NCBI GenBank assembly: GCA_947631665.1
Contig: CANRMF010000010.1
Coordinates: forward strand, 1-54,582
Length of the DNA: 54,582 bases
Source of the DNA: an uncultured Lachnospiraceae bacterium
GTDB taxonomy: Bacteria > Bacillota > Clostridia > Lachnospirales > Lachnospiraceae
Reading direction: 5' to 3'
Below, in pieces: positions 12,236 through 46,371 of this stretch. Made by a program: the position numbers and the translations under genes. Each line of letters opens with the position of its first letter. Position 1 is the first letter of the stretch. The notes under the pieces were generated by a model. It was not told where the DNA came from and did not search any database. It worked only from the letters and a program-made list of their open reading frames with translations.

Positions 12236-12284
12236 ACTGTTTCCTCTCAACTTTGCGCGCTTCTGCGTTCTTATCTATATAAAC

Positions 12285-23348: not shown

Positions 23349-23380
23349 AATCTGCCTCCTAAAATTGCAATGGAAGTGTC

Positions 23381-23452
23381 TGCGGCTTCTTCCGAAGTAC
23401 AAACTGTGACTTCTTCCGAAATACAAACTGTGACTTCTTCTAAAGTACAAAC
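23381..23452. repeat. Three tandem 24-bp repeats in GH94 leader
   Basis: Three adjacent 24-bp copies (plus-strand unit TGTGACTTCTTCCGAAATAC plus AAAC, with few changes) lie between the promoter and the GH94 ribosome site. A degenerate fourth copy follows at about 23453-23480. They would be in the 5' untranslated RNA. Confidence 0.85.
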
Positions 23453-23504
23453 GCACCTCTGATGGCTTCTTCCAACATTTTTCATCTTAAATATTTCTTT
23501 ATTT

Positions 23505-28575: not shown

Positions 28576-28598
28576 AAATAATCTCCTTGTCAATTTTT

Positions 28599-29718: not shown

Positions 29719-31092
29719 TTACTCGTATACTCTTACATAATCAATGTACATATAGTCTTCGTATACTTTTTTACCTGCGTTGCTTGTCACTAATTTCCAG
29801 CCGTTGGTTGAAACGGTTCCTGCTGCGTTTCCGCCAATCGCGCAGTTTAAGATAAAGAAGAACGGGTGGTCGAATGCGCCTTTCCATACCTTATCATAAA
29901 TCGTGCTGCTGTAAGTCGTCGGATCATATAATCCCTTGTTGACGCCATCTACCGTAAACTGGATATATTTATCCGTCCAGATAATGCCGTAAGTATGATA
30001 CTGCTGAGCACACTGTGCCTGTGTCAGTCCGGTAGAATAATTTTTATTTCCATGTGACCAGTACTGGTTGTTGAAATATTCACAGTGAACTGTCTGCGGA
30101 ACGCCGCCGTTCATGGATTCAAAAATATCAATTTCTCCGTCATACGGCCAGCCTCTGGAATCTCCCGTACCGTCGCCCAGCATCCAGCCTGCAGACCATG
30201 TACCCTGCGCGCCTGTTGCCTTTGCGCGGATTTCCATCTTTCCATACTTGAACGTCTTTTTATTCTTTGTATAAATTCTGGTAGACGTATACTGCGTCTT
30301 CTTTCCGCTTTCTATGGTCATTCTCGGAATGATTACCAGATTTCCGTTTTCAAATTTGAGGTTGTCGCCTGCCGTATAATTCTGATATTCATCATTTCCC
30401 CAGCCGCCGGCGCCGGTCTCATATGTCCAGTTATTCATATCCAGTGAAGAACCGTTAAATTCATCACTCCATTTCAATAAATAAGTCTTTACGGACATTA
30501 CTTTGGAGTATTCCGCGCTGACCGTCTTCTTCTTTCCGCCATATGCTTTCACCTTTACATAGTAGGTGTTGCCATAAGCCAGTTTGCTGATGGCTGCGCT
30601 CGTCTTTTTCGCGCCTTTGACGTTTTTCTTTTTGAAACCGCTTTTGCTGTTTGTGGAATAATATACATAGTATCCGGAAGCGCCTTTTACTTTTTTCCAT
30701 GTCGCCTTAATAGTCGCGGTCTGGGCGGTGCTTTCTGCGCTGACAGAGCCTGTGATGGTAACGTTTTGCAGTTTTACCTTTGCAGGTTTTACCGTAACTT
30801 TGGAAGTCGCTTTGCTTCCGTTCTGCTTGATGGTAATCTTGCAGGTTCCAACGCCCTTTGCCACTACTTTTCCTTTTTTATTTACGGTGGCTACTTTTTT
30901 GTTGCTTGTCTTGTAGGTCGCTTTTTTCCCTTTGACCATAATAAAATCTGACTCACCGACACTCAGGGAAATTTTTTTACCATACTGGATTTTCACTTTT
31001 GCTTCCGCCGTCGTAGCCGGAGTAACCGCGAGCAGCGTCAATACCATAGCCGCTGCCAATACTACGGAAGTAACTTTCTTAAATAATTTCAT
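29719..31092 (-). CDS. Secreted GH16 endo-beta-1,3-glucanase with Big and FN3 modules
   Basis: 457 residues. Signal peptide (~1-31), a Big_2-type Ig domain (~32-103; YKTSNKKVATVNKKGKVVAKG), an FN3 domain (~108-203; GYYVYYSTNSKSGF, YYVKVKAYGGKKK) and a C-terminal GH16 domain (~205-457). The catalytic block GEIDIFESMNG (~318-328) holds both glutamates, and FFFILNCAIGG matches the laminarinase consensus. Unlike the GH16 at 12378-15053 the accessory domains are N-terminal and the lysine-rich tail is absent, so it may be released or held differently. It is encoded in the transport operon between the second permease pair and lacI, separated from the permease by a hairpin lacking a U-run. The basic FN3 domain may be a relative of the lysine-rich tail domain of its neighbours. 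Confidence 0.94.
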   Translation of the reverse strand: MKLFKKVTSVVLAAAMVLTLLAVTPATTAEAKVKIQYGKKISLSVGESDFIMVKGKKATYKTSNKKVATVNKKGKVVAKGVGTCKITIKQNGSKATSKVTVKPAKVKLQNVTITGSVSAESTAQTATIKATWKKVKGASGYYVYYSTNSKSGFKKKNVKGAKKTSAAISKLAYGNTYYVKVKAYGGKKKTVSAEYSKVMSVKTYLLKWSDEFNGSSLDMNNWTYETGAGGWGNDEYQNYTAGDNLKFENGNLVIIPRMTIESGKKTQYTSTRIYTKNKKTFKYGKMEIRAKATGAQGTWSAGWMLGDGTGDSRGWPYDGEIDIFESMNGGVPQTVHCEYFNNQYWSHGNKNYSTGLTQAQCAQQYHTYGIIWTDKYIQFTVDGVNKGLYDPTTYSSTIYDKVWKGAFDHPFFFILNCAIGGNAAGTVSTNGWKLVTSNAGKKVYEDYMYIDYVRVYE

Positions 31093-31214: not shown

Positions 31215-32168
31215 TTATTCACCGGTAATACCTGTGTTTTCAATACCCTGAATAAACTGTTTCTGGACTACCAGATACAAAAGCAGAAGCGGTGCGATGG
31301 ATATCAGGGTTGCCGCCATTCTCTGCGCCTCGTTGACTGCGTCTGCGCCGGTCGTCACCCCGTTATCGAACGCCGCCAGATTACCCGGCAGCAGATTGAC
31401 CGCATCTCTTAACATGATACTGGTCGTATATGTTTCATTCCAGTTAAATACGAATGAAAACAGGAATACTACTAAAATCGTTGATAATGATAATCTGACC
31501 GCGATATGATAGAACACTCTTACGGAGCCGGCGCCGTCAATCATTGCCGCCTCGTCGAGAGATTTCGGTATCATGTTAAAGAAGTTGTAAAAGATCAAAA
31601 TCAACATTGTCGAATATGTTCCCTGACCTAACACTGCCATTAAAAGCTGTGGCCAGATGGAATTCATCAGGTTGATGCCAAACCATGTGTTTAAGCTTGT
31701 GAACATCATAACTCTTGGAACTGTCAACAGCGGTACCGGCAAAATGAATGCTAAAATCAGCATGATGTACCATACGTTCCGTCCTTTAAATGTGTATCTG
31801 GACAGCGCAAATCCGGTCATGGCTGACACAAACGTCTGTCCTACCGCCAGCAGCGCTGAGAACCAGATTGAGTTGATTAAGGATTGCGGTATCTCCAACG
31901 TATTGATTGCACCTTTAAAATTGTCCAGCGTCGCGTGTTTTGCAATCCATGTGATGGACGGATCAATTAAGTCCGCGCGGTTCATGATGGATTTTGAAAT
32001 CATCTCAAATATCGGGCTTAAAAATACATAGCCGATACAAATCAACACGAAATAAATCATGAACTTTGAAATAAATTTTACAAATTTTAATTTCTTTAAT
32101 TTGGCAAAGCTGAATTTCTGTACAGCGGACAAATTCATTTTCTTTGCAATATTATTTTTATCTGCCAT
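31215..32168 (-). CDS. ABC sugar transporter permease, MalG-like (second pair)
   Basis: 317 residues from the ATG of MADKNNIAKK at 32168 (AAAGGAGG upstream); it overlaps the end of the preceding permease gene by 11 bases. A basic N-terminus is followed by six predicted membrane helices. The cytoplasmic EAA loop reads LDEAAMIDGAGSVRVFYHIA and continues AVRLSLSTI, lacking the usual proline after the loop. It belongs to the carbohydrate uptake-1 (MalFG) family and would pair with the 390-aa permease encoded just upstream. No ATP-binding subunit is in the locus, so it should share an MsmX/MsiK-type ATPase encoded elsewhere. The operon context points to beta-glucan oligosaccharides or to a partner function with the Yip1 and DUF5696 proteins. 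Confidence 0.92.
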   Translation of the reverse strand: MADKNNIAKKMNLSAVQKFSFAKLKKLKFVKFISKFMIYFVLICIGYVFLSPIFEMISKSIMNRADLIDPSITWIAKHATLDNFKGAINTLEIPQSLINSIWFSALLAVGQTFVSAMTGFALSRYTFKGRNVWYIMLILAFILPVPLLTVPRVMMFTSLNTWFGINLMNSIWPQLLMAVLGQGTYSTMLILIFYNFFNMIPKSLDEAAMIDGAGSVRVFYHIAVRLSLSTILVVFLFSFVFNWNETYTTSIMLRDAVNLLPGNLAAFDNGVTTGADAVNEAQRMAATLISIAPLLLLYLVVQKQFIQGIENTGITGE

Positions 32169-33330
32169 ATAACTTTGCCTCCTTTGCCTGATGTCTCTTT
32201 TGAGCCCTGAGTCTCTTTTTCTGAAGTTTTTCAAGCTTCTTCAGTTTCTTTTCCTGTTTCTGCCGCGCCTTGATGTCTTTCGGCTTTCGGTCTTTAAACA
32301 GCAGGAATACAATACCAATCAACGCCAGAGCAATGATACTGTAAATCCACGCGTACGTCGCCGCGAAGCCGAGTCCCGAGCTCAGATCACCGGTTTTCTC
32401 CTCTATCAGTTCATACATTGGATTGATGGAATCATACATACCCAACTGAATTACGGTGAAGACTGTGATAATCAGTCCAACGCCCTTTAACATCGGAATT
32501 GTAATCTTCCACATAATCTGCCATGCGTTTGCAGAATCAATTTTTGCAGCTTCATATATGCTCGGATTGATTTTCTGCAGACCGTTGATAAACAGTACAA
32601 TCGGAATACCGGTAAACCAGAGAATTACGGATAACTGGTCGAAAATTCCTGCCAGCATATCTGCCAGCGGTTTGGAATAACTGTCGATAATCTGCATGAT
32701 AAAGATATTGGAATACGCATTTGTCGTTTCCACCGCCGCATTCATCTCTGCTGAAATTTCATCGCCTGCGCCCTGTACCGTCAATAACTGTGACATTACC
32801 GGGCCGGACATGATGATTACCGGAAGGAAATAAATGGTTCTTAAAATTCCTTTGCCGACGTTAATCTTGCAGAGCAGATATGCAATGATAAATGCGAGCA
32901 CTACTACGATAATGGTATAAGGAACAATCATTTTAAGATATCCCAGCAGCGCCGGAAGAAATTCCTCGTTACCCACAAATGCGTTAATGTAGTTGTCAAT
33001 GCCGATAAAATCAAACTGATATCCCCACGCTGTTGACTGCACTGCGTTGAAACTTAAATAAATGGTCATCACAAACGGAAACAGCGTGAATATTGCAAAT
33101 CCGATAATCCATGGCGCCATAAACGCGTAACCGTTGCGATCCTGTCTCTGCTGATAGGTGCGCATTTTTTTATGCTTTTCTTTTTTCGGCGCTTCTTTCG
33201 CCTGTTTTTCAGGCTTCTGAGCGCTCTTTACTTTCTTCTCAGCAGTTTTTTCTGCTGTCTTTGCAGCGTTTTTCGCTGTATTCTTTCCCTGAGCTTCCTG
33301 CTGAGGTGTTAATTTTTTTGAATCAGCCAT
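32158..33330 (-). CDS. ABC sugar transporter permease, MalF-like, with Lys/Ala-rich N-terminus
   Basis: 390 residues; the ATG shares a base with the DUF5696 stop (TAATG) and has GGAGG in that gene's last codons, so translation is coupled. The first ~60 residues are an unusual Lys/Ala/Glu-rich, probably coiled extension (AKNAAKTAEKTAEKKVKSAQ), and the last ~45 are again very basic. Between them are about six membrane helices with the EAA loop IYEAAKIDSANAWQIMWKIT. It should form a heterodimer with the 317-aa permease. The charged cytoplasmic ends are not typical of MalF and could dock another protein. Specificity cannot be read from sequence. Confidence 0.9.
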   Translation of the reverse strand: MADSKKLTPQQEAQGKNTAKNAAKTAEKTAEKKVKSAQKPEKQAKEAPKKEKHKKMRTYQQRQDRNGYAFMAPWIIGFAIFTLFPFVMTIYLSFNAVQSTAWGYQFDFIGIDNYINAFVGNEEFLPALLGYLKMIVPYTIIVVVLAFIIAYLLCKINVGKGILRTIYFLPVIIMSGPVMSQLLTVQGAGDEISAEMNAAVETTNAYSNIFIMQIIDSYSKPLADMLAGIFDQLSVILWFTGIPIVLFINGLQKINPSIYEAAKIDSANAWQIMWKITIPMLKGVGLIITVFTVIQLGMYDSINPMYELIEEKTGDLSSGLGFAATYAWIYSIIALALIGIVFLLFKDRKPKDIKARQKQEKKLKKLEKLQKKRLRAQKRHQAKEAKLYGR

Positions 33331-36038
33331 TATTTAACACCTCCTTCGATTACTGCTGCGCTCTTTGCAGCAATTGTTGTACCGTTTACCTGAATTTCTT
33401 CATCGGTGTAGTTAATGATAATCGTCTTAACACTGTCGCCCTTTGTGTACTGATTTGCAATGACGCCGCCAATCTGTTCGTTTTCTCCATCATCGTGTCT
33501 TGTAACCAGTCTGGAGCCGTTCCATGTATAAACGGTTCTGGAATCCCACTGATAACCGATTACCTGTGACAACGGAGTGTTGACTGTATTGTAAATCGTC
33601 TTAATCAAATCTTTGTACTGCTCATACTCCGTAGAGTAGTAATCTGATGAAGCTGTCGCTGCCAGCAGATAAGACGGTTCCTGCGTCAATACAAATGACG
33701 GTGACGTATTGTAATCAATCATTCTCAGCATATCCGTCTGGGAATAGAATGAGAAGTTTGCATATGGAGCGTAAACTTCCATTGTTCCTGAAAGCACCAT
33801 CTGAAGGAATGGAACGGTGTCTGTTTCATATACATACTGGGAAGTGCCCACAGGGGACTGTAAATACCGGTCTGTATACTGCCACAGATATTTGTTTGGA
33901 TTTACCAGATTCACTTTGGTTCCATTTTTCTTTATGTTGCCGATTGCGTCCTGATACAGTTTAACCGTATCCATCGCTGTCGTTCTTGTATTGACATCGC
34001 TGGTGTAAGAGCTTAACAGAATGTTGGAAACGCCGTCAAGCGTAAAGGATTTACTGTACTCTCCTACATCTTCATATAAATCTCCAATCCATGCCGCGCT
34101 CTTTTCCGGACGGGCATATCCATATTCCGTTACCGGACAGTTCGTCGGCAGGATTTCTGAGCGGTCTAATGTCAGATATTGCGTATTCAAATGCTTTGCC
34201 GCATTGTTGTAATAACTAATCATGTCTTCGTTAATCATGGTAAAGTCTCTGGAGAATGAAATATCAATACCACGCTTGTCAAAGTCTTTCATGAGTTCTT
34301 CAAAGTCGCTCTCTGAACCAACGCTGCCGGAGAAGCTGGTGCTGTACGGCTTTGCCTGTGTTTCGCCGCCGCTCTGCCAGCCGATTAAACCGGCGTTGAT
34401 GTTGTGCACGCCGTTATTGTTCAGCGAATCTAAAATGTTTCTGACGTCGTCTGTCGTCGTTACTGCGACTTCCTGTGTAGAAAATACGCCCTTCTTGGAG
34501 TCTGACATCAAAAAGTCGATACGGATAGGAATGGCTGAGCCTTCCTCTTTGATTTCCGTCAGTTGTCCTTCCTCAATCAGATGTTGTCTGTACGCTTTCG
34601 CCATGCCCGCATAATCTGCGGAAGGCGTTCCGTCGCTTCCATCTCCATCTAAAAACTGGAAGGTCATGTCGATGTCAAAATCATTCATCTTATCCTGTAT
34701 TTTTCTGTAAGCTGCTCCCGCCTGATTTGTTACCTGATAATATTCGCTGTTATACAGGAATGACGCATAGGCGTATGTATATGCGACTTTGTTCTTTTCC
34801 ATTGAACTCGGTGTGACATTGATGGTCATATACTCGTCGCCGGAATCCGCATAAGCCACAAAAGCTGCCTGTGTTCCGTCACCCTGAGAAATACCATATA
34901 CCGGCATGGTCGGGCTCTTAATCGGAACAACGTTTAATGACACGTCATTGTTTGCAGGGGAATAATAGTTCTGCGCCGTTGACGGATCGCTGCCGTATAC
35001 TTTTCCTTCGTAACTCTGGAATGTCGCGGTGTTTTCCGCAAATCTTACCAGACTTCCGCTTCCGTCAGGAACTAAAACATAACCCGGCACTAAATCTTTC
35101 TTTTGCGCAATGGTGTAATCTTTGCCGTCATAATAGTTTAAGATACCTCCACTGGCGCCAAGGAACGGCGCAATTTCAACGTTTTTGATTTTGTTTGTCT
35201 GCCCGCTGATTTCCTTGTTCGGAATATTGATATTGACTTTTCCGTTATCTTCAAAGGTCAGGTATACATTCATGCCTACGATTTCCTCTGAAGAATTTCC
35301 AACGGAAAATTCACATTGCAGTTTAAAGCGGTGCTTAGCCTCGTCAACGACCTTAAGGGCAGATTTGTCACCTTCGCTCGGCGCTGACGATACACGCTTC
35401 GGCTGAATACTGTCTCCGCTGCCCTCGTAATAATTGAGTGTAATCAGTGAATTTGCAAAATCAATCCACTCCTCTGACTGGAAGGAGGAATCTGATGCGG
35501 ATACATACTCTAAAAGCTGTGACGGAGTCATTCCGTTTTTCTGTGCATGTTCCTCTAAATTTTTATACTCGTCGGAATTGATTTCCAAAGTTCCGGCTTC
35601 CACTCTCTTTAGAACCTCCGCCATCACTTCATCATCTGTTTTCTTTCCGGTTTTAATTCCTGAAGACTTTGCCAGAGAGATTAACTGCTCTGAAACTTTA
35701 TCGAAATACTTTCTTCCGTCATACACGTCGTCAGTCTGCGGAATGTCCAGTCCGGTCTTCCAAATCCAGCCGTACTGAGGACTGTTTTTATTGACATTTT
35801 CAATTACTAAAATATCTTTGTCTTCTAAGAACAGATATTTGTAATCACCCACCGTACACAATTCCTGATATGCGTCCGTATATTCGAGTGAAGATTTCGC
35901 CCGCTCCGGAACCGGTCTGGTATCTCTGTTTGTATTTAAGAAGGCCGCTCCGACTGCTGCGCCCAGTGAAAGGAGTACTACCAGAAATACTGCTATGGAT
36001 GCAATTTTTATTTTTTTAGCTTTGGCTTCCTGTAACAT
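33330..36038 (-). CDS. DUF5696-family membrane-anchored secreted protein, possible glycosidase fold
   Basis: 902 residues; start overlaps the end of the Yip1 gene by 23 bases, AAAGGAG ~11 bases before ATG. One N-terminal membrane helix (~10-35) anchors an extracellular part. Residues ~200-500 read as a beta-rich domain with VLVPDGSGSLVRF and AAFVAYADSGDEYMTINV. Residues ~520-800 alternate strands and helices with IPIRIDFLMSDSKKG, NAGLIGWQSGG and DKRGIDISFSRDFTMI, then a small C-terminal beta domain. I recognise the DUF5696 family, which recurs beside ABC sugar permeases and Yip1-type proteins in Firmicutes; no function is established to my knowledge. A beta-sandwich plus barrel-like region resembles some glycoside hydrolases, so an uncharacterised glycosidase or a transporter accessory protein are both possible. 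That is inference. Confidence 0.75.
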   Translation of the reverse strand: MLQEAKAKKIKIASIAVFLVVLLSLGAAVGAAFLNTNRDTRPVPERAKSSLEYTDAYQELCTVGDYKYLFLEDKDILVIENVNKNSPQYGWIWKTGLDIPQTDDVYDGRKYFDKVSEQLISLAKSSGIKTGKKTDDEVMAEVLKRVEAGTLEINSDEYKNLEEHAQKNGMTPSQLLEYVSASDSSFQSEEWIDFANSLITLNYYEGSGDSIQPKRVSSAPSEGDKSALKVVDEAKHRFKLQCEFSVGNSSEEIVGMNVYLTFEDNGKVNINIPNKEISGQTNKIKNVEIAPFLGASGGILNYYDGKDYTIAQKKDLVPGYVLVPDGSGSLVRFAENTATFQSYEGKVYGSDPSTAQNYYSPANNDVSLNVVPIKSPTMPVYGISQGDGTQAAFVAYADSGDEYMTINVTPSSMEKNKVAYTYAYASFLYNSEYYQVTNQAGAAYRKIQDKMNDFDIDMTFQFLDGDGSDGTPSADYAGMAKAYRQHLIEEGQLTEIKEEGSAIPIRIDFLMSDSKKGVFSTQEVAVTTTDDVRNILDSLNNNGVHNINAGLIGWQSGGETQAKPYSTSFSGSVGSESDFEELMKDFDKRGIDISFSRDFTMINEDMISYYNNAAKHLNTQYLTLDRSEILPTNCPVTEYGYARPEKSAAWIGDLYEDVGEYSKSFTLDGVSNILLSSYTSDVNTRTTAMDTVKLYQDAIGNIKKNGTKVNLVNPNKYLWQYTDRYLQSPVGTSQYVYETDTVPFLQMVLSGTMEVYAPYANFSFYSQTDMLRMIDYNTSPSFVLTQEPSYLLAATASSDYYSTEYEQYKDLIKTIYNTVNTPLSQVIGYQWDSRTVYTWNGSRLVTRHDDGENEQIGGVIANQYTKGDSVKTIIINYTDEEIQVNGTTIAAKSAAVIEGGVK

Positions 36039-38130
36039 TTCTAAAGATCTCCTTTCCTACTGTGATTATAAAGTCATATAACTGTGACCACATGATGATT
36101 ACTACCAGCACGACGATTGCCGCAATCAGCATAAACGCCGCCGTAATAATCAGGCTGAGTACGGTGTGTTTGAAGTCGTAATCGTGGACGGTCGCCAGCC
36201 CCTCAAAGATGACTGCAATCGACCACACAAGACCAATAATCATAACAACCGTCAAAATGAATGATTCATTGTAGGTCAGCACATATGACATTCCTATTGT
36301 TACCAACATGCAAATCATAACCGGCATCAAACCGTATGCAGGTATCATATAAACCTGCTTCAGCGTTCCGTCGCCATCTGTAATTGATGTAACAAGGAAG
36401 TTACAAATGATAAACAATATCAGAATGGCAAAGAAGCCGACTACGACTGCACTCATATCCATATCCTCGACATCTGTATACTGGTAGATAAATCCTTTTC
36501 CGGTCTGATACAGCATGTATACTCCGAAGAAGATAATATAGATGACTGTCGCTGCGACAACCGAACCGTTTTTGCCGACGCGGATATCATAATATCTTTC
36601 AATCGGGTGTTTCGTGCATTTAAACGCATATCCGATTTCGCCGAGCACCGGTACTTTCTTCAACCGCTGTCCCAGCGCTTTCTTTTTGCCTCTAATGACG
36701 CCGTTCTTGTCGATAAATCCGATGATTATTTTTAAGATGATTAAAATAATCAGTACAATCAGCACCGGCCCTAAATATTTCTTTAACGCCACATTACGAA
36801 CTTCCCAGAATGCGTCGGAATAACCTTCTCTGTTACCGGCAATTTCAAAGTCTTCCATTGCCTTTTCGTATTCCTCGTCATTGAGGTAAGCTTTTGCAAC
36901 ACCGTTGTGCGCCAATACGGACATCTGGTTTAATCGGAGTACTGCGCCCCAATCTTCCAGCGCCGCATCGTAATTTCCATCTTCATATTCTCTTAACGCT
37001 TTGAAAATGGTTTCTGCATAATCTGTCGGCGTAAAGGACTGGATATATCCCTTAATTCCGTCAGCCGTCCAGATATTTCCTTTGTTGTCTACGGCAATCG
37101 TCGTCAACTGTGAGAACAAACCGGAAACGTCCATGTTTTCAACAGCCTCGCCCATCTTGAAGATCAGTTCGCCGTCACGAGTAAATACGCAGATATAACC
37201 GTTGGTATCACTGGTGTAGATGATGCCCTGCTCGTCTGCCGTAACGTCCGTCATATCTCCTGTGGCTTCAACCGGATTGTTAAACAGGTTGCTGCCGTCC
37301 GTACTGTGTTTCTTTAACAGGTCTGTTCCTTCACCCATGCTGACAGAATAAGCCGTACCCTCTAAATCCACGTACACATTGGAGAACGTAGACGGCAGGG
37401 TGTTGAGGATTTCTGAATTTTCCTCCTGCTCTCTCGTGTAGATGAGTTTCAAAAATGCCTGCTGCGGCGTCAGTTTTGTCAGGTTTGCTGCAAAGTATCC
37501 TAAGAACTCGCCCGTATTTGCCAACTGAATGATACCGTTGTAGTTACCTTCTGAAACGATGTACAGGTTATCGCCGCTGTCAATTGCTACTTTGTTCGGT
37601 TCATAGTTTGATGAGGACGCCTCTTTGAAGATTGGCGCTGTCGGCTTGTCATATTTTCTTTCATATGTAAAGTCGTAGTTCTCATTTGCTTTTTTAAACT
37701 TATAAACCGTCTTTGCTGCGGAATCCGCAACGTACAGGAAATCGTCTTCTGTCAGATAAATACCCTTCGGAGTACTCAATCCTGCAACCTCACCGGAAAA
37801 TTCAGGCACCGTTTCATTATTTAAAATGTTTACCGTCTTTTCCGTATCCAGATTGTAAATGACAATCCTCTTGTTTCCCGTATCAGAAATGAGCAGGATA
37901 TTTTCACCCTTTTCATTCTGGTCAATTACCATGTCCTCCGGATCGCTCAGTCCGAGAGAAGTGATGGTTCTGTCCGGCAAGTATGCGTCCTGCGTCCTTA
38001 CAAGTTCTCCCTCGTCATCTAATGTGTAGGAATAACTCGTCGCCTGTGAAGCTGCCGCAGGAATAACGGACATAATCACAAATACCAGTGCCAGAAGCAG
38101 CACTATGGATTTTCTTAATAATGTTTTCAT
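36016..38130 (-). CDS. NHL-repeat, TPR and Yip1-domain membrane protein
   Basis: 704 residues; ATG with GGAGG upstream, 11 bases after the preceding permease gene. Signal peptide (~1-28), then NHL/beta-propeller-like repeats (~50-370), with LSDPEDMVIDQ, LSTPKGIYLTEDDFLYVADS and LTTIAVDNKGNIWTADG. A TPR-like pair of helices (~380-440; NYDAALEDWGAVLRLNQ, LAHNGVAKAYLNDEEYEKA) precedes a membrane helix (~455-475). A five- to six-helix Yip1 domain (~520-695) ends the protein. The propeller and TPR would face outwards and the Yip1 part would be embedded. Such NHL-Yip1 proteins recur with DUF5696 and sugar permeases but have no assigned role. It may be a membrane scaffold or sensor for the transporter; this is inference. 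Its gene lies exactly between the two permease pairs. Confidence 0.8.
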   Translation of the reverse strand: MKTLLRKSIVLLLALVFVIMSVIPAAASQATSYSYTLDDEGELVRTQDAYLPDRTITSLGLSDPEDMVIDQNEKGENILLISDTGNKRIVIYNLDTEKTVNILNNETVPEFSGEVAGLSTPKGIYLTEDDFLYVADSAAKTVYKFKKANENYDFTYERKYDKPTAPIFKEASSSNYEPNKVAIDSGDNLYIVSEGNYNGIIQLANTGEFLGYFAANLTKLTPQQAFLKLIYTREQEENSEILNTLPSTFSNVYVDLEGTAYSVSMGEGTDLLKKHSTDGSNLFNNPVEATGDMTDVTADEQGIIYTSDTNGYICVFTRDGELIFKMGEAVENMDVSGLFSQLTTIAVDNKGNIWTADGIKGYIQSFTPTDYAETIFKALREYEDGNYDAALEDWGAVLRLNQMSVLAHNGVAKAYLNDEEYEKAMEDFEIAGNREGYSDAFWEVRNVALKKYLGPVLIVLIILIILKIIIGFIDKNGVIRGKKKALGQRLKKVPVLGEIGYAFKCTKHPIERYYDIRVGKNGSVVAATVIYIIFFGVYMLYQTGKGFIYQYTDVEDMDMSAVVVGFFAILILFIICNFLVTSITDGDGTLKQVYMIPAYGLMPVMICMLVTIGMSYVLTYNESFILTVVMIIGLVWSIAVIFEGLATVHDYDFKHTVLSLIITAAFMLIAAIVVLVVIIMWSQLYDFIITVGKEIFRNVTGSQS

Positions 38131-38141
38131 GTGCTACCTCC

Positions 38142-39011
38142 TTACTTAATACCTGAATGACTCATAGTGTTCATAACCTTAGACTGCATCATGATAAAGA
38201 TAATTAAGTTTGGTATGAACATTACCAACTGTGCGGCGGCGCTCATACCTGCCGCTGCAACTGCATTGTTTGTTCCAATAGAGCCGACATAATAAGTCAG
38301 GGTTCTTAACGATTCGCTTGTTATGTAGTTGTTTGACGTTTCGACGTTCTGCCATACCTGCTGGAATGTCAGCACTACGGAAGTAGCGAGCGCCGGTTTT
38401 GCCAACGGAATAATAATCTTTCTGAGAATCACCCAGTCGCCTGCTCCATCTACAACCGCCGCTTCGATCAAAGCGTCCGGAATACCATCGACGAACTGCT
38501 TTACGAGGAATAAACCTACCGGCATCGCAATCAATGGTAAGATATGCGCAAACCACGTATTATACGCTCCTAAATTTACGATAATTAAATATCTTGGGAT
38601 TGAAACCGCCGTCGCAATGAACATCAATGCCATCTGGTTTATCTCCCATAAGGCGCCTCTGATTTTGAATTTCTTTTTTGAAAATACATAGGCTGCCATA
38701 ATTGTAATGATTAAGTTTAATACAACTGTCAGCACCGTAACAATCAGGGAGTTCACAAAGTATCTCGACATCGGGATACCGGTAGAACCCGCCAGATTCA
38801 TCAGGTTTCTGAAGTTATCCAGCGTCGGGTTGTGAACAAAGATTGTCGGTGGAAATCTAAATAACTCTCCAAGCGGCTTAAACGCCTGTCCGAAAAGGAA
38901 TACAACCGGAAGAAGCATAAGCACTGACAATGGAAATGCTATCACATGAAACTTAATCTGGCTTCTTGAAAATCTGCTTGGATTGATTCTGTTTCCTTGA
39001 AAATTTGCCAT
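38142..39011 (-). CDS. ABC sugar transporter permease, MalG-like (first pair)
   Basis: 289 residues; AAAGGAGG before ATG, 13 bases after the preceding gene. Six predicted membrane helices; EAA loop LIEAAVVDGAGDWVILRKII followed by PLAKPALATS, the canonical MalG form with the conserved proline. FPPTIFVHNPTLDNFRNL near the N-terminus is typical of the CUT1 MalG subfamily. It would pair with the 316-aa permease just upstream. Belongs to the co-transcribed transport operon. Confidence 0.94.
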   Translation of the reverse strand: MANFQGNRINPSRFSRSQIKFHVIAFPLSVLMLLPVVFLFGQAFKPLGELFRFPPTIFVHNPTLDNFRNLMNLAGSTGIPMSRYFVNSLIVTVLTVVLNLIITIMAAYVFSKKKFKIRGALWEINQMALMFIATAVSIPRYLIIVNLGAYNTWFAHILPLIAMPVGLFLVKQFVDGIPDALIEAAVVDGAGDWVILRKIIIPLAKPALATSVVLTFQQVWQNVETSNNYITSESLRTLTYYVGSIGTNNAVAAAGMSAAAQLVMFIPNLIIFIMMQSKVMNTMSHSGIK

Positions 39012-39024
39012 ATGTTCCTCCTTT

Positions 39025-39975
39025 CTAATATTCCTCTTTTTCTGTAAACAGTTTATTTGCTACCTTACTGCATATCCATACCAGAGCCAGCAGCGCTACG
39101 GAAATCGCTGATGCGTAACCCATCTCGTACCTTACATACGCGTAATCGTCGATATGGTTCGCAATCAACTGTCCGGCGTAGTCCGGCGTCGGGTTTGCTC
39201 CTGCGAGCGCCACGCCGATCCAGCCCATGTTGAAGGCATTTACAATGGACATTACCGCGCCGAATAACATCTGCGGTTTCATGGACGGTACGGTAATATA
39301 GATAATTTCCTGCGCCCTGTTTTTGATACCATCGACATATGCCGCTTCGTACAACTCCTGATCGATATTCATGATACCTGAAAGCATGGACAAAAATCCA
39401 ATACCCATAGACGACCACAGGGATACGAAAATCATAATCTGCATAAAGTAATCCGATGATATCAGCCATTGAATTGGCTGGTTTATAATGCCCAATTTCT
39501 GCAGGTACGCATTTGCCAGACCACTCTGGTCACCGGAGAAGATGGTCTTCCAGATGAACTGGATAAACAACTGACCTGCCATAGACGGTATGTACATACA
39601 CAGTGCGTAAATGGTTCTGGCACGCGGCGTAACCTGCGCCAAAATCCATGCCATCAGGAAGGATAATACATATCCTCCGATACCAACAACAATCGCATAG
39701 AGGATTGTGTTTGGCAATACATACTTCATAAATACTTCGTCACCTGTCAGCAATGTGATATAGTTGCTCATTCCCGCAAATTTCGGTGTGTTGATAACAT
39801 CAAAATAGGTGAAGGATAATCCCATACCAATGACAATCGGTAACAAAATGAATGTGAAGAATAATAATCCGTATGGTAAAAAGAGTACAAATACGTGGAA
39901 GCCATTTCTGTCAGTGAATTTCTTTTTTCCTACGTTTTCTGCAGTTTCTATTTTTGCCGTTTTACTCGCTGCCAC
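39025..39975 (-). CDS. ABC sugar transporter permease, MalF-like (first pair), GTG start
   Basis: 316 residues if started at the GTG at 39975, nine bases after AAGGAGG. An ATG at 39999 overlaps that ribosome site and is less likely. The GTG overlaps the stop of the 1064-residue binding protein by 14 bases, giving translational coupling. Six membrane helices; EAA loop LYEAAYVDGIKNRAQEIIYI followed by TVPSMKP. CUT1 family. Expected to form the channel with the 289-aa permease and to accept substrate from one of the binding proteins encoded immediately upstream. Confidence 0.92.
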   Translation of the reverse strand: MAASKTAKIETAENVGKKKFTDRNGFHVFVLFLPYGLLFFTFILLPIVIGMGLSFTYFDVINTPKFAGMSNYITLLTGDEVFMKYVLPNTILYAIVVGIGGYVLSFLMAWILAQVTPRARTIYALCMYIPSMAGQLFIQFIWKTIFSGDQSGLANAYLQKLGIINQPIQWLISSDYFMQIMIFVSLWSSMGIGFLSMLSGIMNIDQELYEAAYVDGIKNRAQEIIYITVPSMKPQMLFGAVMSIVNAFNMGWIGVALAGANPTPDYAGQLIANHIDDYAYVRYEMGYASAISVALLALVWICSKVANKLFTEKEEY

Positions 39976-42900
39976 TGTCTTCCACCTCCTTATCTCCATA
40001 GTTTTCCGGTATCTCGCCTTCCTCCGGCGTCGCCTTGGACATCTGCTCTAAAATCCATGCTTTCGCGTCGTCATGGAGTACAAAGGACTGTCCGCTCGCC
40101 AACTTGCCGTCGTCGTCGTAGAAACCTAACTCCTGCATCTTTCTCACAATTTCTTTGTTGACATCTGATTTTTCTTCATCTACGGCAACCTGCGCTGATA
40201 CGCCGTCGAATACCATTGACGTCCAGATGTTTGAAATTGTTCTCTCTAATAAGTACTGTCCCGGCGTTCTCGGTACGTCAGTTACATAATCAATCTGATT
40301 CATGATGGTTCTCTTGTCTGCTTCTTCCATCGGATTGTTTTCCAGCGCCGCCTTGTTTGCTGACAGCCAGAAGAATGTCTTTCCGTATGTAGAGCGGAGT
40401 GTCTGGGTGTATTCGGTCTGAACCTGTTTGCTAGTCCACCACTTTAAGAACTCCCATGATTCATCAATCATTTCAGACTTTTTGAAAATAACGCCGCCGG
40501 TACCGTTTGCCACAAAGCTGGCATTATGTTCGCCGTTTGTTTCCGTATATAAATATGGTTTCAGTTCCCAGTTACCGTTCAACTCCTGCGCACCGTTTTT
40601 AATTAAGGTGTAATCCTCCATACCTACAATACCAATCGGAAGTACGGAATATCTAAAGGAGTTAAAGAAGGAGTTTACGGACGTTTCCAGAGAGTATTTT
40701 GTAAACAAATCTCCTAACATCTGCAAGCCTCTGACTGCGTCTTTTGAATCGACGCCGGTCGTAACAAGTCCGGTATCCTGATCCTGAACGTAAAGTTTTC
40801 CGCCGTTTTGGAGAATCATCGGCGCCGTCTGATAAAACCATTTATATCCTGTCGTTCCGAGAGAGATGTTGTGGTAGAAGTTCATACCATATCTCTGAAG
40901 CGTCGGAAGAATATCAATCAGTTCTTCCCATGTAGACGGACACTCTAATCCTAACTGGCCGAAAATATCGGTTCTGTAAATAATTGCATTGAAATCGGTC
41001 GTCTCCGGAATTGCATACATTCCATCATTGTATACATAAGATACAAAAGAGCCTGCCGGGAATCTGTTTGCCACAGACCAGAAATCATCAAACTGCGTCA
41101 AATCATATAAGGCGCCACGACTTGACAAATCAAACGGTACATAGGACATCAGTCCCAGCGCAATATCCGGCGTTTCATCTGCCGCTATCGCCAATGTCAG
41201 TTTGTTTACATCAGGCATCGTCGCAATTTTTACTTTGATATCTTTTCCGGTTTTTTCTTTATAATAATTGACAAATTCCGTATCTGCCATTTTCTGAAGT
41301 AAATCTACGTGGGTGATTGCCCTGTTTACCCAGATGGTAATGGTCTTTCCGTCGTCTACGATTTCTGAGGAATATTTGTCAGAGGTAAAGGTGTTGACCA
41401 GCGCCATCGTGGAAGTCCACAAAGAACTTGCCCATGATGAGTTTGGTTTTTCCAACTGTCCTTCTTCTCCGTAAATATAAATTCTGTCCAGTGTGAAATC
41501 ATTGCTGATTACTTCTGTCGTAAAGTTACTTAAGGATACCAGAACAGAGTTGTCTGCTCCGGTCAGGTCTGCGGTATGTAACGCAATGTCGTCCGGATAT
41601 TTCAGCATATCGCCGATAAACTGATCCGCTTCATCGAGGTATGCCAGTATCGCGCCATTGATGCCGTTCTCTGAATAATCCTGTAACAGGAAGCGGATAT
41701 GGTCGATAATCGTCTGATAACTGTTCAGATAATCTACGATATTTGGAATATAGTTGGTCATCTTCCAGTTTCTTTCCGCATCGACGTCACTACCTGTAAT
41801 CTTTGTGATTTCCAGCTCGAAGTCCGTAATATGCTCCTGAAGCAATGTCGCATAACGGTATGCCTCCATCACCGGCTCATTTTCCTGCTTGATGGTGAGG
41901 GTATGGATTCCTTCCGTCAGATAGAAGTTGTAATAATTTCCATCTTTGTCGGCCAATGTGACGTTCTGGTATCCTGAGCCTACCGGCTTGAAGGAATAAT
42001 TGTACATTTCCGCAAACGGAACTTCGCCGTCAATCATAATGGTCTCAAAGGAATCAAATTCCTTCTTTTCATTGCTGCAATGGAATGCAATATTGTAATT
42101 TCCGGTCTTTTTTACATTGAATCTGTATGTAACAGCGATTCCTGCCGCATTCCACTCGATTGTATTCAATCTATCATTGTCTATGTTGTATCTTGTAAGT
42201 GAAGTTTTTGCTGTTGAGCCGTAAATAGCGTCTGTTGAGTTCTTTTCAGAATAATATACGGAATCAATCTGAAGCATATCTTCATCGGCACGAACTATTT
42301 CTGCGTCAGAATGTTGCGCAGCATACTGCTCATAACTCTGATATGAATCAACCGTCTTTGGTTCTTTTGCAACTAACTTTCCTAACGCCAGACCGCCTGA
42401 TGATGCGTTTGTAATCGTGATGGTATTTTCACCCTTCTGCAGTTCAAACATCAGCGGGGTGCTGGATACATATGTATTGTTGTACAATGCGGTATCCCGA
42501 TACCAGCGAATAACTCTCTCCTGCGGCAGCGCCATTTCATCGCCATAACTATCCTGATCGAATTCTTTATCTGTGTCACTTCCGACATAACTTTCCGGAT
42601 TGTTGACATCAGACCAGATAATCGGAAGCGCAATCGTATTCATTTCGGAATATAACTGTTTTCCGTTTACGCCTACGCTAATCGTGTAATCTGATAAGGA
42701 TTCCCCTACGGACATGTAATCAATCGCCAGCGTATACAATCCGGCTTTTTCAACAGTCACTTTGTAGGTGGCTTCTCCTCTGTATGGCAATTCCTGCATA
42801 TCAGAATCATATTCGCTTATCGCATTGATAATTGCTTCTCCGTCATCACTCTGTCCCAGTTTTTCCCTGTTTTCTTTCAGATAAGCAGCAGCGCTCTTTC

Positions 42901-43156
42901 CGGTCGTCAGCACTGCGTCATGGTTTCCTTCACCGGTTTCATGGCTCTGTTTAATGAAATCCGTATAGTAAACCTCTGCTTCCTCCCCTTCTTCAAGATA
43001 TGAATTTTTCAATAAATCATATGCTTCCTGAAGCTTTTGGGAATCAACATCTTGAATATAAACCGCTTCTGTGTTGAAAACAAATTTAAACAGGCAGACG
43101 ACAACAGCAATTACAGCCACTAAAGCTATGATTATGGTAATAATTTTTTTCTTCAT
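39962..43156 (-). CDS. Membrane-anchored carbohydrate-binding/solute-binding fusion protein
   Basis: 1064 residues; AAGAGGACAGCA precedes ATG. An N-terminal membrane helix (~4-26) has no lipobox cysteine. Two beta-sandwich, CBM-like regions follow: ~115-265 (YRGEATYKVTVEKAGLYTLA, ENTITITNASSGGLALGKL) and ~320-440 (VTYRFNVKKTGNYNIAFHC). A helical linker (~450-570) leads to a C-terminal family 1 extracellular solute-binding domain (~620-1010) with KIATMPDVNKLTLAIAADET, YAIPETTDFNAIIYRTDIF and WEFLKWWTSKQVQTEY. It is thus about twice the size of a normal sugar-binding protein and fuses surface glycan capture to the transporter. It sits between a conventional lipoprotein SBP and the first permease pair, to which it is translationally coupled. 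Domain limits are approximate. Confidence 0.82.
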   Translation of the reverse strand: MKKKIITIIIALVAVIAVVVCLFKFVFNTEAVYIQDVDSQKLQEAYDLLKNSYLEEGEEAEVYYTDFIKQSHETGEGNHDAVLTTGKSAAAYLKENREKLGQSDDGEAIINAISEYDSDMQELPYRGEATYKVTVEKAGLYTLAIDYMSVGESLSDYTISVGVNGKQLYSEMNTIALPIIWSDVNNPESYVGSDTDKEFDQDSYGDEMALPQERVIRWYRDTALYNNTYVSSTPLMFELQKGENTITITNASSGGLALGKLVAKEPKTVDSYQSYEQYAAQHSDAEIVRADEDMLQIDSVYYSEKNSTDAIYGSTAKTSLTRYNIDNDRLNTIEWNAAGIAVTYRFNVKKTGNYNIAFHCSNEKKEFDSFETIMIDGEVPFAEMYNYSFKPVGSGYQNVTLADKDGNYYNFYLTEGIHTLTIKQENEPVMEAYRYATLLQEHITDFELEITKITGSDVDAERNWKMTNYIPNIVDYLNSYQTIIDHIRFLLQDYSENGINGAILAYLDEADQFIGDMLKYPDDIALHTADLTGADNSVLVSLSNFTTEVISNDFTLDRIYIYGEEGQLEKPNSSWASSLWTSTMALVNTFTSDKYSSEIVDDGKTITIWVNRAITHVDLLQKMADTEFVNYYKEKTGKDIKVKIATMPDVNKLTLAIAADETPDIALGLMSYVPFDLSSRGALYDLTQFDDFWSVANRFPAGSFVSYVYNDGMYAIPETTDFNAIIYRTDIFGQLGLECPSTWEELIDILPTLQRYGMNFYHNISLGTTGYKWFYQTAPMILQNGGKLYVQDQDTGLVTTGVDSKDAVRGLQMLGDLFTKYSLETSVNSFFNSFRYSVLPIGIVGMEDYTLIKNGAQELNGNWELKPYLYTETNGEHNASFVANGTGGVIFKKSEMIDESWEFLKWWTSKQVQTEYTQTLRSTYGKTFFWLSANKAALENNPMEEADKRTIMNQIDYVTDVPRTPGQYLLERTISNIWTSMVFDGVSAQVAVDEEKSDVNKEIVRKMQELGFYDDDGKLASGQSFVLHDDAKAWILEQMSKATPEEGEIPENYGDKEVEDSGSE

Positions 43157-43248
43157 TGCTGTCCTCTTTTCCTATTTTTTGTCAGATTTTTCAACTTTTT
43201 TGTTTCTATTTCTTCTTAATATAATGTTTTTCTTTCGCTGGCGCAAAA

Positions 43249-43273
43249 GCGGAACCACAATTTGTAGTTCCGC
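43249..43273 (-). other. Hairpin after the solute-binding-protein gene (weak U-run)
   Basis: GCGGAACTACAA pairs with TTGTGGTTCCGC (one G-U), followed by only TTTT then GCGCC. It lies 30 bases after the SBP stop and 93 bases before the next start. Such hairpins often leave the binding protein more abundant than the permeases, by partial termination or 3'-end protection. Confidence 0.65.
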
Positions 43274-43303
43274 AATGCTTATGCGACAAACTTAAAAACC
43301 AAA

Positions 43304-44995
43304 TTACTTCAAATCTGCGTCTTTAAATCCGTAATTGTCTTTTAATGCTTTCTTTAACTGCGTATTTGCTTTTGCGAAACGCTTATTGATAGAAGTGTTC
43401 CAGTCAGAAAGTCTTGATTTTACATTGTCTACCCAGTTCTTATCTGTCATCCAGCAGCCGGCTACTTCTTCGTCCCACTTGTTCTGCCATTCATATAAAC
43501 ATGCCTTCTTTTCGCCGTTTTCCGTAATGGATAATGGGGTAGCCTTGTCTGCATAATCCCAATAGTTTCCTGCCTGCCAGATTTCAAGAATCTTGTTCCA
43601 GCCTTCTTTATCCTTGTATGTCTTGTGTGCCGGAACTGCATTCCAGATAGCCATCTGCTCATCATAAGCATCTCCCGTTACAACAGGGAAGGAATCTCCG
43701 GACGTTGTCTCTTTTACCTGATCGCCGTCAGTATATTTCTGGTCAAAGATTGCAAGTTTTGCTGATGTGCTGGCTGTCCAATAAGAAGCAAATCCGTATG
43801 CTACGTCGAGTTTCTGCTTTTCTTCATCGCTCCACTCTTTGTTATTGTCGTCAGATGCGTAGTTGTGAATACAAATCGGATCTGTGATTACTCTGATTGT
43901 ATTTTCAGAATATTCTGTAGACGGATATGGATAAATATCCCAGTCCGTAGCATTTACATAAGTATCTGTCTGGCTTGCTGATTCGTCTGCTGCTGCTGTC
44001 AGATACCAAGGATCTTCCTGATTTGTCAATGTTCTGTTCTTTGAGAAGAAATACCATGAGTAGTCGCTACATTCCTGCATGATTTCCTTAGATACGTTTC
44101 CTGCGCCGTTTGCTGTGTCAACAGTACCCTGTGACCAGTCGTTCAGATAAGATAACAGGCTCTTTACTTCGTCTGTATCCAAATCAACGTTGCCTTTTTC
44201 CTTAATCTGCTTGTTGATCGTCGGAGCTGCGATATCTACGATACCTGAAGCAGTACCCTTGCTGCCCCAGTAGCTCTTGTTGTCAGCGCTGCCGACAAAT
44301 CTTGTGTAATCGTCAATATCCCAGTCAGGACTTGGAACGTGAATATTGTTGCTGGCTGCTAAAGACTTGTTTACCCAGATACCTGCCGGAATCGTGTATG
44401 ACGGAAGTCCTGCTTGGAATCCATAGTAATTTAAGTCTGCCATCAGCACTTCGTTGTATGCCTTATAAGTTTCATCATCTGCATATACGGACAAGTCTGC
44501 TACAAGTCCCTTTTTCACATCATTTGGAACGTCTGTGGAGCCCCAGATGTCAGGATACTTGCCATATGTAGCCTTGAAGTTTTCCATTTCCTGCTCCCAT
44601 GTCGGCGTACCAACCTGATCCGGATCACCCTGCTTAGACCAGATGTTAATCTTGATATTCGGATAAGTTTCATTAAACTTATGTGCTACTGCGTATACCT
44701 GAGCCACGTTGCTGGCTGTCAGGTCTTTTTCTGACATCTCTTTATGTCCGATATCCTCATAGTATTTTCCGTCGCCTGACCATACCATGATAGATACGTC
44801 GCCTTTGACATTTTTATCTTTGAGATTTGTAGCGCCTAAAGAAGTTTTGTCGCTCAATCCGTTCTGTGAGCTGAGGCCGGTGCCATCTTCGCCGTTTCCA
44901 CCTTCGCCTGAGCCGCCGCATCCGGTCAAAATCATTGATGCGCCTAAAATAATCGTCATTGATAAAGCAAATGCTTTACGTCCAAATTTTTTCAT
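43304..44995 (-). CDS. Lipoprotein sugar-binding protein of ABC transporter (first gene of operon)
   Basis: 563 residues; AGGAGG ten bases before ATG. A type II signal peptide ends in the lipobox LTGC (Cys ~25), then a Gly/Ser/Glu-rich linker. The mature part is a family 1 extracellular solute-binding protein: VSIMVWSGDG, NETYPNIKINIWSK, YPDIWGSTDVPNDVKKGLVADLSVY without the long stretch being unusual, and AIWNAVPAHKTY near the end. At ~560 residues it is on the large side for binding monosaccharides and fits oligosaccharide binders. It is the promoter-proximal gene of the transport operon and is followed by a hairpin that may favour its over-expression. Expected ligand: laminari-oligosaccharides, from context only. 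Confidence 0.93.
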   Translation of the reverse strand: MKKFGRKAFALSMTIILGASMILTGCGGSGEGGNGEDGTGLSSQNGLSDKTSLGATNLKDKNVKGDVSIMVWSGDGKYYEDIGHKEMSEKDLTASNVAQVYAVAHKFNETYPNIKINIWSKQGDPDQVGTPTWEQEMENFKATYGKYPDIWGSTDVPNDVKKGLVADLSVYADDETYKAYNEVLMADLNYYGFQAGLPSYTIPAGIWVNKSLAASNNIHVPSPDWDIDDYTRFVGSADNKSYWGSKGTASGIVDIAAPTINKQIKEKGNVDLDTDEVKSLLSYLNDWSQGTVDTANGAGNVSKEIMQECSDYSWYFFSKNRTLTNQEDPWYLTAAADESASQTDTYVNATDWDIYPYPSTEYSENTIRVITDPICIHNYASDDNNKEWSDEEKQKLDVAYGFASYWTASTSAKLAIFDQKYTDGDQVKETTSGDSFPVVTGDAYDEQMAIWNAVPAHKTYKDKEGWNKILEIWQAGNYWDYADKATPLSITENGEKKACLYEWQNKWDEEVAGCWMTDKNWVDNVKSRLSDWNTSINKRFAKANTQLKKALKDNYGFKDADLK

Positions 44996-45392: not shown

Positions 45393-46181
45393 TTATTCGG
45401 ATTCTCTTTTTCTTGAGAAAACTACTACTGCGGCTGCTGCTAAAATTGCAATGCCTGCGAAAATAAACGGATCAAAATCACCGGTTGATACCGTCGTGGT
45501 CGTTGTTGTTCCACCATTGTTAGTAGACGGTGTGCCCGTAACAGGCTGGTCTTCTGTCGTCTTTTCTGTCAGTGAGTAACCTGTACATGTAATCACTGTC
45601 GCTGCCACAGAATCGCCATCTGCGTCCGGCTGCGCTGCAATTCCTTCTGCGCCGCCCTCGGCATATGAGTAATGCTTTGTACCGTCTGTGGAAGCTCTGT
45701 CACCATATTCGCCGCCAATACCGAAGTAAATCGTATTTGCGTCTGTTGCTGCCGTAAAGTCTTCATCTACGGTAACTGCCTGTCCCTTTTTCATGCGAAC
45801 CCACTTACCATAAGCGATATCATCTTCACCTTTTGCAACTTTGATAAATGCCCATTTATCTACTTTAGATGACTTTAATGTAAACTTGATATGATATTCT
45901 TTTCCTTTTGTAATGCTTACGGAACCGTATTTCTTGCTGTCTTGGAAAACCTGTCCTCCCCAGACACCGCCCCAGCCGATAGCTTTGATGTCAGCCGTCC
46001 ATGAGTCTGCTGTCTGAGATTTTAAAGTTCCATCTGAGCCTTCATACCACAGTCCATGTCCTGCGCCTTCTTCCATTCCGAAGTAGCTGCCCCATGTATC
46101 TGCAGCGAAACAGTTTACTGTCATACCTACTGTCAATGCTGCTGCAGCAATCACAGTTACGAGTTTCTTTAATGTCCTCAT
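45393..46181 (-). CDS. Small surface-anchored carbohydrate-binding protein
   Basis: 262 residues from the ATG at 46181 (GAGGAGGAG seven bases upstream); the frame extends further up but that part overlaps the promoter. Signal peptide (~1-27, ending CFAAD). Residues ~28-205 form a CBM4/9-like beta-sandwich (TWGSYFGMEEGAG, GGVWGGQVFQD, YHIKFTLKSSKVDKWAFI, TIYFGIGGEYGD). A Thr/Gly/Asn linker with a poly-Thr run leads to STGDFDP, a membrane helix (FIFAGIAILAAAAVVVF) and the tail SRKRESE. The end resembles a sortase-type sorting signal, but no clear LPXTG or NPQTG is present, so simple membrane anchoring is as likely. Monocistronic, divergent from plsC. Expected to hold glucan fragments near the transporter. 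Confidence 0.8.
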   Translation of the reverse strand: MRTLKKLVTVIAAAALTVGMTVNCFAADTWGSYFGMEEGAGHGLWYEGSDGTLKSQTADSWTADIKAIGWGGVWGGQVFQDSKKYGSVSITKGKEYHIKFTLKSSKVDKWAFIKVAKGEDDIAYGKWVRMKKGQAVTVDEDFTAATDANTIYFGIGGEYGDRASTDGTKHYSYAEGGAEGIAAQPDADGDSVAATVITCTGYSLTEKTTEDQPVTGTPSTNNGGTTTTTTVSTGDFDPFIFAGIAILAAAAVVVFSRKRESE

Positions 46182-46226
46182 TTTTGCTCCTCCTCTAATT
46201 TTTGCGATACTTTCGCTTATAACCGA

Positions 46227-46255
46227 AGTATAACACGAACCCTCGTTCAATTCAA
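46227..46255 (-). promoter_or_regulatory. Promoter of small CBM gene with operator-like repeat
   Basis: In the minus direction TTGAAT (46255-46250), a 17-base spacer and TATACT (46232-46227). The spacer contains the inverted repeat GAAC-CCTC-GTTC (46237-46248). Confidence 0.7.
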
Positions 46256-46371
46256 TGGATAAAATAAGTTTTTTCTTAGATTTTATCATTATTAACAATT
46301 TTTAAATTATTTCCTGTACAAATTTGCTAAAATTTTTCATTTGCGCTCCATAAACACATCAACATTTTCCA

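Follow-up and report, generated by a model that had tools for sequence, protein, structure and literature searches.

What does a gene run do that encodes two pairs of sugar-importer permeases, two further membrane proteins and no ATPase? The question is raised by eight co-directional minus-strand open reading frames (ORFs) at 31215–44995 of the window analysed here, which is one entire contig of 54,582 nucleotides (CANRMF010000010.1; G000:C10) from the 2.0-Mb, 74-contig genome of an uncultured Lachnospiraceae bacterium (assembly GCA_947631665.1). The ORFs encode, in order, two putative solute-binding proteins (SBPs; SBPa, SBPb), a MalF/MalG-type permease pair (F1, G1), an NHL-TPR-Yip1 protein (YIP), a DUF5696 protein and a second permease pair (F2, G2). 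Here we report a comparative analysis from which we conclude, with moderate confidence, that the run encodes an enlarged CUT1-type ATP-binding cassette (ABC) importer for beta-1,3-glucan chains, with DUF5696 as receptor and YIP as scaffold. The gene set probably represents a widespread, undescribed kind of sugar importer.

A sequence-only reading of the window had described the run as co-directional and largely overlapping. All ORFs were confirmed and the overlaps it listed are correct; the intergenic gaps from SBPb to G2, taken from longest-ORF starts, are -38, 13, 11, -23, -1 and -77 nt, none above 13 nt, and position 39975 falls within the longest ORF of F1, position 32168 within that of G2.

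Conservation of the gene set

Neighbourhoods were compared in 134 loci (53 from genomes of the phylum, 80 named loci and the window); of 55 strong DUF5696 matches outside the window, those of G204 and G323 were excluded. Order was counted on ORFs of the same strand with 90 aa or more in the 129 loci with one DUF5696 ORF above 100 bits; the others (L101, L151, L155, L162, L164) have a tblastn match to DUF5696 and a YIP ORF, but no DUF5696 ORF above that score. YIP is the next ORF upstream of DUF5696 on the same strand in 125 of the 129 loci, as judged by a YIP profile seeded with the window protein and built from the same loci as those counted, and the remaining four loci end at contig ends. 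None of the 125 YIPs scores below 199 bits; in one locus an ORF on the opposite strand comes between YIP and DUF5696 in the sorted order. The two genes are separated by no more than 50 nt in 121 of the 125 loci (median gap -11), with overlap in 89, and the same limit holds for DUF5696 and F2 in 104 of 106.

In this analysis, which the sequence-only reading had proposed, DUF5696 genes are anything but rare beside permeases: 120 of 129 are directly followed by a permease ORF (two in 106 loci, one in 14), the others by a contig end (5) or by something else (4; L052, L070, L080, L149). The full order SBPb-permease-permease-YIP-DUF5696-permease-permease was found in 75 of 129 loci. It is contiguous in loci titled Bacillus, Anaerolineae (L135), Thermosipho (L154), Treponema (L111) and Acholeplasma (L109), and the titles of the named loci cover Bacillota, Chloroflexi/Anaerolineae, Thermosipho, Fervidobacterium, Treponema and Acholeplasma/Izemoplasmatales/Haloplasma. 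The closest DUF5696 relatives are titled Eubacterium or Lachnospiraceae metagenome-assembled genomes (best identity 66%, L102). A local quirk of the window is ruled out by this recurrent order.

At the genome level, 398 genomes of the phylum were searched, with strong matches defined by E <= 1e-100, a threshold picked after the first two lists had been seen. Strong matches to DUF5696 and to YIP occur in identical sets of 37 genomes each, including that of the window, which amounts to about one tenth of the sampled genomes. SBPb (E <= 1e-100) occurs in 39, comprising all 37 plus G104 and G154; in these two the SBPb contigs measure 3.8 and 4.3 kb, and the assembly may just lack DUF5696 and YIP. 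Weak YIP matches in G039, G235, G243 and G368 are partial; G243, which shares its genus label with G104, has no YIP match beyond this partial one. The comparison shows DUF5696 and YIP, at the level of gene content, as a linked pair that accompanies F2-G2 and, genome-wide, SBPb (often then F1-G1). The earlier proposal that both proteins are integral to the importer is therefore upheld as regards a conserved import gene set (125/129 loci; the same 37/398 genomes); the evidence does not extend to a single fixed complex, the sub-modules being separable.

DUF5696 matches in the phylum genomes numbered 46 at E <= 0.001, 39 over the family cut-off and 37 strong. Four weak matches were checked and rejected as members; they are alpha-amylase (L166, L168) or DUF6259 (L165, L167) barrels. 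DUF6259 and DUF5696 may share a barrel superfamily, because DUF6259 proteins weakly match the DUF5696 model. Two pattern matches to DUF5696 in viral contigs were not relatives.

Two separable sub-modules

The system splits into SBPb-F1-G1 and YIP-DUF5696-F2-G2, which can occupy separate loci and differ in copy number. Several findings weigh against one enlarged importer. Two permease ORFs stand directly upstream of YIP in only 89 of 129 loci, and loci of group B2 often hold YIP-DUF5696-F2-G2 without F1-G1 alongside; in several genomes the four-gene unit stands alone or ahead of SBPb-F1-G1. SBPb-F1-G1 is not needed one-to-one, because DUF5696 and YIP outnumber SBPb in G062 (10/10/4 copies of DUF5696/YIP/SBPb), G040 (11/12/6), G135 (10/11/4), G165 (8/8/4) and G082 (20/19/9); the other five of the ten chosen genomes have 3/3/3 (G101), 4/4/4 (G342), 2/3/2 (G290), 0/0/1 (G104) and 0/0/1 (G154), all counts including fragments and split genes. 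The first five are genomes of 2–3 Mb with 8 to 20 DUF5696 matches each (fragments included), a large expansion for their size.

Finally, the divergence of F1-G1 shows no coupling with that of YIP or DUF5696 beyond background. Length-controlled partial correlations of divergence, calculated from 200 columns per protein in 47 complete, non-redundant modules, were 0.78 for F1-G1 and 0.43 for F2-G2 (bootstrap 5–95% ranges exclude zero), 0.27 for DUF5696-F2 (0.10–0.39) and YIP-DUF5696 (0.10–0.44), 0.23 for YIP-SBPb (0.05–0.38) and 0.21 for YIP-F2 (0.05–0.37). For the other 15 protein pairs the range includes zero, for F1-G2 and DUF5696-G2 only just. These values, though weak evidence, are in keeping with a bridging role of YIP and with F1-G1 being separable.

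The same findings lend themselves to a different explanation, which we regard as possible but not probable: two separable importers in one regulon and no joint complex, SBPb-F1-G1 being an ordinary CUT1 importer whose receptor is tethered, and YIP-DUF5696-F2-G2 plus a lipoprotein SBP a second one that has two accessory proteins. The separate occurrence and unequal numbers of the sub-modules would fit, as would the coevolution of F1 and G1 solely with each other and the weak SBP-profile ORFs that adjoin YIP-DUF5696-F2-G2 in many B2 loci. Against it stand the presence of SBPb in 37 of 37 genomes with strong DUF5696 and YIP, dispersed genes included, and the recurrence of the contiguous seven-gene order from Bacillus to Anaerolineae, Thermosipho, Treponema and Acholeplasma loci. 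A scaffolded, receptor-equipped importer is the most likely role of the gene set, assembled either as one complex or as two cooperating importers.

The DUF5696 protein

The DUF5696 protein matches its family (PF18952) with 454.7 bits (cut-off 25.6), which is its only Pfam family at E <= 0.01. Its fold is of the glycosidase type, with the three-domain architecture of glycoside hydrolase (GH) family 129. The window protein did not match the Pfam model Glyco_hydro_129 (E <= 0.01); across 149 genomes of the phylum this model matched nothing at all, so that the genome search was uninformative. Among the structural matches, every enzyme with an activity named in its title is alpha-acting; a further fold comparison of 50 rows includes one beta-arabinopyranosidase.

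We take the acid/base of GH129 in NagBb to be Glu478. The nucleophile, according to the available part of the source, is Asp435 in NagBb and Asp486 in DagB (PMC5698469). At the corresponding positions of DUF5696, the ends of strands beta4 (~668) and beta5 (~713), no such conserved pair was found. Position ~668 is aspartate in 13, threonine in 7, serine in 6, glutamate in 4 and alanine in 3 of the 37 sequences of clade A, to which the window belongs, aspartate in 23 and glutamate in 4 of the 33 of B1, and mostly arginine, serine or glycine in the 51 of B2; position ~713 is likewise variable in all three groups. The window protein itself has D668, though its clade does not keep aspartate there. 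Of two further residues, R688 is kept in 84 of 84 other sequences and lost in the window's clade, where D677 is mostly lost as well.

Because the aligned catalytic positions vary across the family, DUF5696 is probably a glycosidase-fold protein with a non-catalytic function. Two points count against this part of the reading: the positions were placed by alignment to NagBb and predicted strands, to about two residues and with no residue-level superposition, and the next column, 669, is aspartate in 22 of 51 B2 sequences. That DUF5696 is an active membrane-anchored glycosidase, trimming side chains or ends before import, nevertheless appears improbable. The sequence-only reading had allowed for such trimming, and the glycosidase fold is indeed present; the variable positions ~668 and ~713 and the losses of R688 and D677 in the window's clade do not bear it out, and the neighbouring substrates are beta-glucans, whereas the fold matches with named activities are alpha-acting.

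YIP and the other components

YIP matches Yip1 (PF04893) over residues 510–672 with 58.5 bits (cut-off 28.6), and also NHL and, weakly, TPR (Pfam). Its topology would comprise an extracellular NHL propeller and TPR part, a transmembrane helix, a cytosolic linker and the Yip1 membrane domain. The propeller resembles NHL domains that bind proteins or RNA, and TPRs mediate contacts between proteins. In 16 of 53 B2-group loci (L032-L034, L036-L040, L042, L046, L048, L051, L060, L067, L074, L079), YIP is called as two ORFs, the NHL-TPR part and a small Yip1 part, which suggests that the two parts form one functional unit; the split YIPs are a natural fission/fusion pair. It is very unlikely that YIP-DUF5696-F2-G2 is, instead of an importer, a unit for glycan sensing or surface assembly with permeases that act in signalling or export: the propeller, the TPRs and the regulators in the loci would suit it, but G2 keeps an importer-type BPD_transp_1 domain, F2 and G2 keep EAA loops, and the neighbours are catabolic.

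SBPb carries an SBP_bac_1 domain at residues 617–913 (3e-23; 83.7 bits, cut-off 26; Pfam) and a hydrophobic segment at residues 5–23; its alignment (11 sequences) has 82 invariant columns. It had been taken for a fusion of an SBP with a carbohydrate-binding module (CBM). The SBP part stands, and for the CBM part there is a sub-threshold CBM_35 match in one of two beta-rich regions read off the alignment. SBPa has no Pfam or NCBIfam match at E <= 0.01, carries a lipobox-like ...LTGCGG, has homologues above 100 bits in 28 of 41 clade-A loci (window counted) and adjoins SBPb in the mapped loci. F2 has no Pfam match at E <= 0.01 and is identified as a permease by weak NCBIfam matches, position and profile in relatives, and an EAA-type loop with S for G. 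The glycine of the EAA loop is present in 88/88 F1, 88/88 G1, 106/106 G2 and 80/106 F2 sequences (alignment column counts). Upstream of SBPa lies a 301-aa ORF (Table 1) that lacks Pfam and NCBIfam matches, possibly encodes a surface-anchored glycan-binding protein, and has homologues preceding SBPa in close relatives (L085-L090, L102, L122).

Table 1. Features of the eight-gene run and of the surrounding locus in the window.
Feature	Position	Strand	Description
SBPa	43304..44995	-	Putative lipoprotein solute-binding protein, 563 aa; first gene of the run
SBPb	39962..43156	-	N-terminal membrane anchor, two beta-rich regions, C-terminal SBP_bac_1
F1	39025..39999	-	MalF-type permease; BPD_transp_1 1.2e-11; EAA loop kept
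G1	38142..39011	-	MalG-type permease; BPD_transp_1 3.5e-12; EAA loop kept
YIP	36016..38130	-	Signal peptide, NHL beta-propeller, TPR, transmembrane helix, linker, Yip1 domain
DUF5696	33330..36038	-	N-terminal membrane anchor, extracellular GH129-like three-domain fold
F2	32158..33330	-	Second MalF-type permease; charged N-terminal extension; EAA loop S for G
G2	31215..32234	-	Second MalG-type permease; likely start 32168; BPD_transp_1 1.1e-11; EAA loop kept
301-aa ORF	45393..46298	-	Secreted, C-terminal membrane helix, basic tail
GH16 endo-beta-glucanase	29719..31092	-	Weak Big_2 and fn3 matches
LacI-family regulator	28599..29603	-	Pfam/NCBIfam
GH161 beta-1,3-glucan phosphorylase	25387..28623	-	795 bits to PDB 9qqk 'GH161A', over 24-1075
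273-aa ORF	23688..24509	-	No clear family
GH94 laminaribiose phosphorylase	20652..23456	-	1062 bits to PDB 6ggy
1412-aa ORF	15222..19460	-	No clear family; signal-type start, weak fn3
473-aa ORF	10829..12250	-	No clear family
212-aa ORF	10239..10877	-	No clear family
GH81 endo-beta-1,3-glucanase	2603..9943	-	F5/8 type C domains

ATPase and substrate

The absence of an ATPase from the run, as noted in the earlier reading, extends to the whole contig: the 45 ABC_tran matches of the genome are all on other contigs, and among 1713 ORFs of the 134 loci an ABC ATPase query (E <= 1e-5) matched only 6, none inside the module. An ATPase of the MsmX type that the system might borrow is available as an orphan UgpC/MsmX-type gene (G000:C30:3226-4344; 494 bits, cut-off 432), and no module-type permease was found among eight ORFs tested in the surrounding 9-kb stretch. 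Two ABC ATPases of the genome (C29, C30) were typed to subfamily; the first candidate, on G000:C29, was rejected as a polyamine (PotA-type) ATPase. We infer that the orphan ATPase serves this system; a shared ATPase is supported by an msmK deletion in C. bescii, as described in the available part of PMC8579813.

By its gene content, the region of the window is a beta-1,3-glucan locus (Table 1), which also holds a GH17/GH2-like protein, another GH16 and four proteins with no clear family. Within the stretches covered, GH161-type genes occur in 20 and GH16 genes in 26 of the 41 clade-A loci (window included). Neighbours were scanned as unassigned same-strand proteins of at least 250 aa, up to three per locus, with open-ended ORFs omitted and the number of residues capped. 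For B1, the 76 proteins from 88 candidates included 15 GH35, 14 Putative glucoamylase (a Pfam family that we take to be GH144-type), 7 SOGP and 4 GH3. B1 loci point to beta-1,2-glucan, because this combination matches the make-up of an Ignavibacterium cluster of GH35, GH144 and SOGP-type GH94 genes, as given in the available part of PMC8861115. For B2, 80 proteins (of 84 kept from 91 candidates) included 5 GH26, 3 GH43, 3 GH42, 2 GH10, 2 GH130 and 2 GH28, and also non-sugar families such as rRNA methyltransferases. The relatives thus appear to lie in beta-1,2-glucan and plant-hemicellulose loci, with plant or microbial polysaccharides rather than one sugar as the common theme. Laminarin, on which the earlier reading had suggested transcriptomics, fits the window, but not as the only substrate of the family.

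Proposed function

The run and its genome hold the parts of a CUT1 importer: an SBP of the SBP_bac_1 type, MalF/MalG-type permeases with EAA loops, and a non-local MsmX-type ATPase. In the proposed mechanism, secreted GH81 and GH16 would release glucan chains, which SBPa, a free lipoprotein, and SBPb, tethered and with CBM-like domains, would capture. DUF5696 would sit at the outer face of F2-G2 and serve there, without catalysis, as a receptor for glycans or as a partner of the channel, and YIP would link SBPb, DUF5696 and the permeases to one another through its extracellular propeller and TPR and its Yip1 membrane domain. Both permease pairs would draw their energy from the shared orphan MsmX/UgpC-type ATPase, and GH161 and GH94 would phosphorolyse the imported chains inside the cell. 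Least certain is the final step, in which long chains would be held and admitted by two permease pairs that share a receptor platform. Only tentatively do we propose that two permease dimers, bridged by a Yip1/beta-propeller scaffold and with a dead glycosidase as receptor, constitute a distinct multi-phylum class of ABC importers for long or polymeric glucans.

The link of DUF5696 and YIP to glycan import, together with the fold and the probable non-catalytic role, would allow better annotation of many loci for beta-glucan and hemicellulose. If the two permease pairs do act together, the picture of one pair as one sugar importer would have to be revised. Should the tentatively proposed class exist, uptake of long or polymeric glucans would reach beyond that of ordinary CUT1 importers, and bacteria would have a counterpart to the heavy chains with a glycosidase fold that serve animal amino-acid transporters.

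Comparison with known systems

With the GH129 and GH129-like alpha-glycosidases (NagBb, 5wzn; DagB, 5opq), DUF5696 shares 12% identity; unlike them, it is membrane anchored and tied to a transporter, and the catalytic positions are not conserved. GH94-GH161 tandem clusters with ABC genes mostly lacking an ATPase have been described in Acholeplasma, Paenibacillus and Bacillus weihaiensis (PMC6484121). They resemble the present locus in their enzymes and in their ABC genes, and the available part of that source describes no double permease set; the words Yip1, NHL and DUF5696 are absent from its main text, as are Yip1 and NHL from the main texts of PMC5128808, PMC4765114 and PMC8579813. In the literature collection searched, no paper naming DUF5696 and no published role for DUF5696 or this YIP family was found, and Yip1 was absent among the matches listed for broader queries.

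The SLC3 heavy chains (4F2hc, rBAT) are non-catalytic ectodomains with a single anchor and an alpha-glycosidase fold that partner animal amino-acid transporters. Their likeness to DUF5696 is an analogy only, the system described here being a bacterial ABC system with no evidence of transporter homology. Another close comparison is with CUT1 importers that use a shared MsmX/MsmK: both have an SBP, MalF/MalG-type permeases with EAA loops and no local ATPase, whereas the present system has two permease pairs, a tethered CBM-SBP, and YIP and DUF5696 as additional linked proteins.

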